A stretch of DNA of 64,000 nucleotides, from contig JAJDAN010000039.1 in the NCBI GenBank assembly GCA_029261855.1, forward strand, positions 124,001-188,000, read 5' to 3'. The position numbers and the translations under genes were made by a program. A model generated the notes under the pieces. The model saw nothing but the letters and a program-made list of their open reading frames with translations. It did not search any database and was not told where the DNA came from. Position 1 is the stretch's first letter. Each line of letters opens with the position of its first letter. This document shows positions 61,969-63,762 of the stretch, one piece after another. Origin of the DNA: Deltaproteobacteria bacterium. Its GTDB lineage: Bacteria > Myxococcota_A > UBA9160 > UBA4427.

Positions 61969-63054
61969 TCAGGCGTCGAAGGTCAGCACGGTCCGGGCCA
62001 CCTCGCCCTGCTTGAGCGCGGCGAGGGCGTCGTTCACCTGTTCGAGCGGCAGGCGCTGGGACACCATCTCGTCGAGGTGGAGTTTGCCTTGAAGGTAGAA
62101 CTCGATGTAGCGCGGCATGTCGACCCGGAAGCGATTCGAGCCCATCGCGCAGCCCTGCAGTTTCTTCTCGGACAGGAAATCGACGCCGTGGATCTCGACC
62201 ATCGTGCCCACCGGAATCATGCCGATCACGGTCGCAGTGCCGCCCCGGGCCAGCATCCGGAACGACTGCTCGGTGGTCAGCTTCAGGCCGATCGCCTCGA
62301 ACGAGTAGTCGACACCTCCGCCCGTCAGCTCTCGCACCTGGGCAACCGGATCGCCGTCCGCAGCGTTGACCAGATCCGTGGCGCCGAAGGTCTTCGCCAG
62401 CTCGAGCTTTCCAGGCACCGTGTCGATGGCGATGATCCTGCCCGCCCCCGCAATCGCCGCGCCGTTCACGCAGGCGAGACCGACTCCGCCGCAACCGATC
62501 ACCGCGACGCTGCTGCCCGGTTCGACGCCGGCGGTGTTGTGCACGGCGCCGACACCGGTCGTCACCCCGCAGCCAATGAGCGCAGCGCGATCCAGGGGCA
62601 TGTCCTTGCGAACCTTCACCAGGGCGTGCTCGTGGACGAGCATCTGTTCCGCGTAGGACGACAGGTTCACGAACTGATTGACGACCTCGTCTCCCTTCGA
62701 GAGTCGCGGCGGGTCGCCGGGGGCGCGCTGGACGTCCGGGCTTTGGCAGAGGGACATGCGACCGGTCAAGCAGTAGGAGCAATCCCCGCAGAAGGCCGAG
62801 AGACAGGTGATCACGTGGTCCCCCGGCGCGACGTAGCGGACGTCGGAACCCACGGCCTCGACGATGCCTGCGGATTCGTGACCGAGCACCGTCGGAAGCT
62901 GGTGCTTGTAGGACCCTTCGACGAAGTGCAGGTCGCTATGGCAGACGCCCGCCGCCGCGGTCCGGATCAACACCTCACGAGCCGCAGGCTTCGCGACCTG
63001 GATGTCCTCGATGACGAGCGGCTTTCCCACCTCACGCAAGACTGCAGCCTTCAC
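61969..63054 (-). CDS. Zinc-dependent alcohol dehydrogenase (MDR family)
   Basis: 361 aa from GTG 63054. Catalytic zinc ligands are in GVCHSDLHF, GHES and a later Cys (IGCGVTTG). The structural zinc lobe is CGDCSYC plus a Cys seven residues on. The cofactor motif is VIGCGGVGL, followed by AIDTVPGKLELAK, whose Asp favours NAD. It resembles class III-like and mycothiol/NDMA-type enzymes that oxidise long-chain or aromatic alcohols. It could act on alcohols made by AlkB or the P450. The divergent gap with the selenoperoxiredoxin gene holds repeats and a palindrome. Confidence 0.88.
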   Translation of the reverse strand: MKAAVLREVGKPLVIEDIQVAKPAAREVLIRTAAAGVCHSDLHFVEGSYKHQLPTVLGHESAGIVEAVGSDVRYVAPGDHVITCLSAFCGDCSYCLTGRMSLCQSPDVQRAPGDPPRLSKGDEVVNQFVNLSSYAEQMLVHEHALVKVRKDMPLDRAALIGCGVTTGVGAVHNTAGVEPGSSVAVIGCGGVGLACVNGAAIAGAGRIIAIDTVPGKLELAKTFGATDLVNAADGDPVAQVRELTGGGVDYSFEAIGLKLTTEQSFRMLARGGTATVIGMIPVGTMVEIHGVDFLSEKKLQGCAMGSNRFRVDMPRYIEFYLQGKLHLDEMVSQRLPLEQVNDALAALKQGEVARTVLTFDA

Positions 63055-63081
63055 GGATCGAGCCTCCTGGACAATGCCCCC

Positions 63082-63114
63082 GAGAGATTCCGGAGAGATC
63101 CCGGACAGATCCCG
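63082..63114. repeat. Three 11-bp direct repeats in the ADH/peroxiredoxin divergent gap
   Basis: GAGAGATTCCG, GAGAGATCCCG and GACAGATCCCG follow one another without gaps, about one helical turn per unit. Such spacing suits side-by-side binding of a regulator on one DNA face. They lie 28 nt upstream of the alcohol dehydrogenase start. Confidence 0.7.
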
Positions 63115-63159
63115 GAGAACGAGCCCTGAAATGAGCCGAAAAACGTGCTTCGCGGCAGG

Positions 63160-63174
63160 GTAGCCCGGGGCTAC
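63160..63174. promoter_or_regulatory. Palindrome overlapping the peroxiredoxin -10 box
   Basis: GTAGCCCGGGGCTAC is a perfect 7-1-7 inverted repeat. Its right arm overlaps the first bases of TACAAT (63172-63177), so a protein bound here would block that promoter. Confidence 0.5.
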
Positions 63175-63177
63175 AAT
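63172..63177 (+). promoter_or_regulatory. Leaderless-type -10 box (TACAAT) for the selenoperoxiredoxin gene
   Basis: TACAAT ends 6 nt before the GTG at 63184 and is the closest match to TATAAT among the boxes of this kind in the window. It supports GTG 63184 as the start rather than the upstream TTG-type start at 63145. Confidence 0.55.
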
Positions 63178-63183
63178 GAAGCG

Positions 63184-63762
63184 GTGCGAAATCTGGCCTT
63201 GCTTGCGCTCCTGCTGCTCCTGTGGCCGACCTCGGCCGGAGCCGCAGATCTGTCCGTGGGCGATGTGGCGCCGCCGTTCACCCTGGCCGGGTCCGACGGG
63301 AAGCAGTACTCGCTGGCGGAGATCCTGAAAGCCAACCAGGGGGCCGTGCTGGCGTGGTTCCCAAAGGCCTTCACCCCTGGCTGAACGGCCGAGCTTCGCT
63401 CGCTGCGTGACAGCGAGAAGGGCCTGACGGAGTACGACAGCGCCGTCTTCATGGTGAGCCTCGACGACGCGGAACGGAACCGGGCCTTCGCGGATTCCAT
63501 GGGCGCCGACTTCATTCTGCTGAGCGACCCGAGCGGCCAGGCCGCCGAAAGCTACGGCGTGCTCGCCATGGGGGGCCTCTACGCGCGGCGGATCACGTAC
63601 TACATCGACGCCCAGGGTCGCATCGCACACATCGATCGCGACGTCGCCACGGAGACCCACGGCGAGGACGTGCTCCGGAAGCTCGGCGAGCTGGGCTTCC
63701 CGAAGAAGGCGTCCTCATCCTCGCCGGATGCCGTCGAATCTCCGCCCCAGGACGGGAAGTAG
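63184..63762 (+). CDS. Exported peroxiredoxin with selenocysteine at the peroxidatic site (in-frame UGA)
   Basis: 192 aa if TGA 63382-63384 is read as selenocysteine (residue 67). Signal peptide about residues 1-21 (LALLALLLLLWPTSAGAA). AhpC/TSA-type thioredoxin fold: VGDVAPPFTLAGSDGKQYSL, then AVLAWFPKAFTPG-U-TAELRSLRD, where the family has PGCT with the peroxidatic Cys. The frame stays open and well conserved in type after the TGA (VFMVSLDDAERNRAF, FILLSDPSGQAAESYGV, YYIDAQGRIAHID) to TAG 63762. The protein has no Cys at all, so it would be a one-Sec enzyme reducing peroxides outside the cytoplasm. A SECIS-like hairpin follows the TGA. A nonsense mutation is the alternative. Confidence 0.78.
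63394..63420 (+). promoter_or_regulatory. Candidate bacterial SECIS hairpin
   Basis: CTT, bulge CG, CTCGCTG, loop CGTGA, CAGCGAG, AAG. The upper stem has 7 perfect pairs, the loop has 5 nt with G as its second base, and the loop begins 21 nt after the TGA. These values fall in the range described for bacterial SECIS elements that bind SelB. The hairpin lies inside the coding region, as is usual in bacteria. Confidence 0.65.

Follow-up and report, generated by a model that had tools for sequence, protein, structure and literature searches.

A probable selenocysteine peroxiredoxin with a predicted signal peptide and no cysteine, in a selenoprotein-rich deltaproteobacterial genome

Introduction

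The TxxU type of bacterial selenocysteine peroxiredoxin (Sec-Prx; COG1225/PF00578) has been recognized since 2001 and ranks with the commonest selenoproteins of marine bacteria; published sets comprise 43 sequences from the Sargasso Sea, 253 from the GOS and 12 from early genomes (PMC1088965, PMC2398784, PMC1794560, PMC13188914). As described there, these proteins combine an AhpC/TSA domain and a peroxidatic selenocysteine (Sec) with a SECIS element right after the UGA and with widespread cysteine (Cys) homologues, all of which are shared by the gene analyzed here. An exported, wholly Cys-free branch is not singled out in the relevant passages of those reports. For Prx, an early survey found five Cys-to-Sec events and no Sec-to-Cys event among 12 selenoproteins (PMC1794560).

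Several other families are related by sequence or fold. PrxU of Eubacterium acidaminophilum (NF040737) is likewise a Sec peroxiredoxin, but the present protein scores only 24.5 bits against its cut-off of 270, and 21.7 bits against the cut-off of 298 for Prx-SUH (NF045827). Nearest by both profile and fold is PrxQ/BCP (NF006960; Sulfolobus Bcp1, 3drn), where the score of 85.7 bits also lies below the cut-off (140). PrxQ/BCP proteins can carry a second Cys at +5, whereas the protein of 63184-63762 has none and is predicted to be exported; in our homologue set, the two members with a +5 Cys (L150 and L151) sit on a long outer branch. AhpE, the 1-Cys Prx of Mycobacterium tuberculosis, is alike in fold (TM 0.85 over the target) and has no resolving thiol, but it is a Cys enzyme rather than a selenoprotein, with ~31% identity over the match. 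AhpE is cytosolic. Since TxxU Sec-Prx have long been described, the gene belongs to an already known kind; what it would add, judging from sequence comparison, is an exported Cys-free branch and a probable reversal to Cys. Our search of the open-access literature returned no report of an exported or Cys-free Sec-peroxiredoxin, although one may exist elsewhere.

Results and Discussion

The window analyzed is a stretch of 64,000 nucleotides, and the features of the gene within it are collected in Table 1. The plus-strand frame translates as VRNLALLALLLLLWPTSAGAADLS...AWFPKAFTPG*TAELRSLRDSE...QDGK*, with the TGA of codon 67 as its sole internal stop; the GTG start was picked from the signal peptide and the homologue alignment. 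Read through, the protein contains no Cys and carries the motif FTPGU (TxxU), while the CxxC/UxxC motif of thiol oxidoreductases is absent from it. The AhpC-TSA profile PF00578 (E 2.8e-27, cut-off 26 bits) matches residues 25-149, so that the domain spans the TGA, and the TGA aligns with the peroxidatic Cys of solved peroxiredoxins. The AlphaFold model (pLDDT 91.9) has a peroxiredoxin fold, with Bcp1 and BcpB (BCP/PrxQ) and AhpE as the closest solved structures. Invariant columns of a 65-row alignment include T64, residue 67 (C/U), R136 and T138, and P60 is nearly invariant. An earlier note, written from the DNA letters, had placed the lone stop of an intact peroxiredoxin frame on the catalytic Cys and had called the rest of the protein Cys-free; translation, the PF00578 match and the structure alignments bear out the first point, and translation the second.

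Table 1. Features of the peroxiredoxin locus (window coordinates)
Feature	Position	Strand	Description	Basis
Probable selenoprotein peroxiredoxin gene	63184..63762	+	GTG start, TAG stop (63760-63762), 192 residues, Sec at 67	Translation with TGA=U; PF00578 95.5 bits
Predicted signal peptide MRNLALLALLLLLWPTSAGA	63184..63243	+	AxA-type cleavage near residue 20	Simple rules and homologue N-termini
In-frame UGA, read as selenocysteine 67	63382..63384	+	Peroxidatic position, PxxxTxxU	Homologue rows: TGA 75, TGC or TGT 36, TAA or TAG 0
SECIS upper stem, 5' arm CUCGCUG	63399..63405	+		Pairing and covariation in TGA forms
SECIS apical loop CGUGA	63406..63410	+	G at position 2, then U or G	
SECIS upper stem, 3' arm CAGCGAG	63411..63417	+		Pairing and covariation in TGA forms
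Catalytic Arg 136 codon	63589..63591	+		Invariant in 65-row alignment

As that note had also anticipated for standard gene callers, mechanical ORF calling splits the gene into two pieces, 63145-63384 and 63451-63762. Both pieces would be listed equally if the UGA ended an exported peptide of 66 residues and 63451-63762 were a separate gene. The domain match and the fold cross the codon, however, and the Cys homologues are single open frames; two genes would offer nothing to preserve TGA over TAA or TAG, or a SECIS, in 61 sequences, and we regard such an arrangement as extremely improbable. An ORF on the opposite strand, 61969-63660 (-), covers most of the peroxiredoxin gene. Its 563 open codons might speak for a real coding frame, but only the downstream part resembles zinc alcohol dehydrogenase, the usual-type start MKAAVLREVGKP lies outside 63184-63762, and long antisense ORFs recur opposite the GC-rich homologues (36 loci), which leaves next to no probability for coding on that strand. 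A gene caller that overextends the dehydrogenase may thereby hide the selenoprotein.

Conservation of codon 67

Homologues were gathered from a genome-collection scan and from 60 related genomes, giving 111 rows that cover the codon. TGA stands there in 75 of them and TGC or TGT in 36, with no TAA or TAG, and a chance origin of the TGA is rejected on account of this pattern; the earlier note had proposed exactly this comparison, with TGA or Cys in relatives as the supporting outcome. Removal of duplicates left 61 TGA forms and 35 Cys forms. Most homologues come from metagenome-assembled genomes labelled Myxococcota or Deltaproteobacteria, Acidobacteria, Planctomycetota, Verrucomicrobia or Proteobacteria, and the closest has 62-65% identity. 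Additional TAG or TAA codons beside some homologues were considered as Sec-codon stops and rejected, as the Sec codon is TGA, TGC or TGT in all rows; the extra stop of L137 lies downstream of the domain. One acidobacterial contig carries two adjacent UGA-containing peroxiredoxin copies (L066, 4965-6308).

A single in-frame stop would also fit a young pseudogene, with the TGA arising by ordinary nonsense mutation in a decaying gene. Against decay, purifying selection persists downstream of the TGA, with dN/dS of ~0.07-0.15 in most close pairs and similar values upstream (the pair L026/L030, at 0.53, is an exception, and distant pairs are saturated). Decay would further have to account for 61 distinct sequences with TGA, and never TAA or TAG, at the same codon, and for the covarying SECIS described below; its probability is accordingly negligible.

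A covarying SECIS hairpin

The UGA is followed by a hairpin whose 7-bp stem begins 14 nt, and whose apical loop begins 21 nt, after it. A published model for bacterial SECIS elements (PMC13188914) specifies a loop of 3-9 nt, an upper stem of 4-16 bp, a spacing of 16-37 nt, a G within the first two loop positions following a G(G/U) rule, and a minimum free energy of at most -7.5 kcal/mol; the hairpin agrees with all of these rules: its loop has 5 nt with G in second place, its stem has 7 bp, the spacing is 21 nt and the fold of 63382-63429 reaches -18.1 kcal/mol. Its stability in this single gene is mild, with z scores of -1.35 against shuffles and -1.76 against synonymous recoding. Because single-gene fold statistics are weak, a comparative test was used, and the SECIS case rests on the comparison.

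Nearly all TGA forms have the same hairpin at the same distance, with pairs 18-24/30-36 counted from the U of the UGA and a loop of CGUGA or a near variant. Pairing amounts to 74-100% in the 61 TGA forms (lowest at the outermost pair, 95-100% at the inner six) vs 31-86% in the Cys forms. Covariation was tested on 35 TGA forms chosen to span the observed variation, with 500 shuffles and slid-partner controls. Paired cells made up 93.5%, compared with 74.5% in shuffles, and 39 cells had changed on both sides of a pair, compared with 12.2, a count reached in none of the 500 shuffles; when the partner was slid by 1-3 columns, both-side changes fell to 0-10. The covariation score was 0.479 (0.164 when shuffled). 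The closing pair swaps between C-G and G-C in myxococcotal and planctomycetal rows alike, the pairing and codon counts ignoring kinship. Loop position 2 is G in 61/61 TGA forms, and the next base is U in 51 and G in 10. The Arg codon of the loop is CGU in 50/60 and CGG in 10/60, never CGC or CGA; elsewhere in the same genes CGU accounts for 13%, and CGC is the commonest Arg codon. This synonymous-site constraint corresponds to p ~2e-29 when kinship is ignored.

Rfam SECIS_1 (RF00031) matched neither the genome nor any control genome, so its silence carries no weight; a permissive Rfam scan run on the gene returned chance matches only. The possibility that the hairpin is a generic element used throughout the genome was rejected, as the folds after UGA differ in other UGA genes of the genome.

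Selenocysteine machinery of the genome

The source genome (6.96 Mb, 98.6% complete) encodes selA (517 bits), selB (273 bits), selD (338 bits) and tRNA-Sec (66 bits), all above cut-off, and ARAGORN confirms the tRNA-Sec with anticodon UCA; the machinery for which the earlier note had advised a search is thus complete. For a TGA read as Trp or Cys, through a changed code or unspecific read-through, we found no specific support: many ORFs in the genome terminate at TGA, a Sec-type UCA tRNA is present together with SelA, SelB and SelD, and the homologues swap TGA with Cys codons only, so that decoding as another residue is barely credible. The reading as a selenoprotein, by comparison of sequences, is strongly supported, and 63184-63762 very probably encodes a selenocysteine peroxiredoxin.

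Twenty AhpC-TSA matches occur in the genome; in nine, the present gene among them, the codon of the redox Cys is TGA. Among the other eight (L104, L105, L109, L110, L114, L118, L119, L121), the redox motif is UGC in L114, GULFC in L118 and WUPxC in the remaining six. The selD gene is itself a UGA gene, with the motif GGUARK (L098, C24:63971-64897). The source organism is, by these predicted genes, selenoprotein-rich. SelA is found above cut-off in 57/61 genomes (the source and its relatives); among distant genomes, selA (above cut-off or split over two contigs) accompanies the TGA form in 24/25 and the Cys form in 17/25. SerRS charges tRNA-Sec with serine, and a pairing of serS with selB is therefore functionally sensible. 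In the source genome serS (TIGR00414, 440 bits) is the gene immediately upstream of selB (L001 352-3600, C32), and the same adjacency was seen at every one of the 30 SelB loci inspected from this taxonomic order (including L152-L180).

Predicted export

Export was judged from hydrophobicity and sequence by simple rules. The N-terminus has a short basic n-region, a long Leu-rich core and AGA before AD; direct reading finds neither a lipobox Cys nor twin Arg in it. These features suggest export into the cell envelope through the general secretory route. Hydrophobic N-termini are general across the homologues, and most exceptions reflect the choice of start. Of the earlier note's view that a signal peptide places the protein outside the cytoplasm, unusually for a selenoperoxiredoxin, the signal-like N-terminus stands as a prediction, but what had seemed an oddity of this gene is shared and conserved among its homologues.

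A branch without the +4 cysteine

Quick trees with SH-aLRT support were built, the second with the +4 and Sec columns omitted. Outside the branch that holds the present gene, a second Cys at +4 (UxxxC/CxxxC) occurs in 32 Sec rows and in 30 Cys rows; within the branch, the +4 Cys is found in 0/30 Sec rows and 0/3 Cys rows. It is likewise missing from the two distant outgroup rows. The tree calls for a single change at +4 and nine switches between Sec and Cys; as the two trees place the outgroup at different points, the change at +4 may be a gain or a loss. The branch is mostly myxococcotal and predicted to be exported, and it lacks both the +5 Cys that PrxQ/BCP can carry and the +4 Cys present in its nearest relatives.

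The three Cys forms inside the branch (L133, L136 and L148) come from one genus and form one group within the Sec forms (SH-aLRT 99). L133 and L136 keep most of the seven SECIS pairs, five in one and six in the other (counted by eye), while the loop has become CGC with loss of the U; the SECIS-like stem is likely the remains of a former SECIS, and a Sec-to-Cys reversal inside the branch is probable. G041, one of the genomes with these Cys forms, has no selB above cut-off and a partial selA at a contig end. The absence of such a selB makes loss of the Sec trait in G041 likely, with an assembly gap as a possible explanation.

Proposed mechanism

We infer the following scheme for Sec insertion, export, substrate and reductant. 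UGA codon 67 would be decoded by tRNA-Sec(UCA) with SelB, directed by the SECIS within the coding sequence, and the protein would be exported along the general secretory pathway. Thr64 and Arg136 would activate the selenolate at 67, which would then reduce H2O2 or organic hydroperoxides and itself become a selenenic acid. A thiol from outside the protein, either a small molecule or a thiol-redox partner located in the envelope, would restore the selenolate. An external thiol would be needed because the chain has no Cys to resolve the selenenic acid; 1-Cys peroxiredoxins and glutathione peroxidases work likewise. By sequence, the protein lacks a resolving Cys in the chain, as 1-Cys-type enzymes do, and AhpE-like working is probable given the similar fold and the lack of a resolving thiol in either. 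The product is likely a GPx-like peroxidase of the 1-Cys type that acts outside the cytoplasm with a single selenol. The earlier note went further in holding that a Sec-only mechanism is needed; the absence of Cys elsewhere in the protein agrees with such a mechanism, but the need itself is an extrapolation, and L133, L136 and L148 carry Cys at the site, also without the +4 Cys.

The selenoprotein might alternatively use its peroxiredoxin fold mainly for another task, as an envelope selenol oxidoreductase or as a redox sensor. The homologue loci have no conserved neighbour genes beyond antisense ORFs, and a cytochrome-c-like gene follows the peroxiredoxin in three relatives only; no neighbour indicates a pathway or suggests a reductant, and no reductant is assigned, as could be expected of such a protein. 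The invariance of T64, residue 67 and R136, the near invariance of P60 and the lack of CxxC/UxxC argue for a peroxidase instead, and we consider the alternative unlikely.

Significance

An active-site UGA causes ORF calling to split this gene in an uncultured, selenoprotein-rich order. We tentatively propose an exported multi-phylum family with a mostly myxococcotal branch that lacks the +4 Cys and is almost always in the Sec form, in which Sec would remove the need for a resolving Cys and yield a one-selenol, GPx-like envelope peroxidase, and from which one genus may have returned to Cys with remains of the SECIS. The family forms a natural set of Sec proteins with and without the +4 Cys and Cys proteins with and without it. 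Such a set lets one ask whether Sec frees a peroxidase from its resolving thiol and, as a further question for the family, what the reductant of such an enzyme would be outside the cytoplasm.
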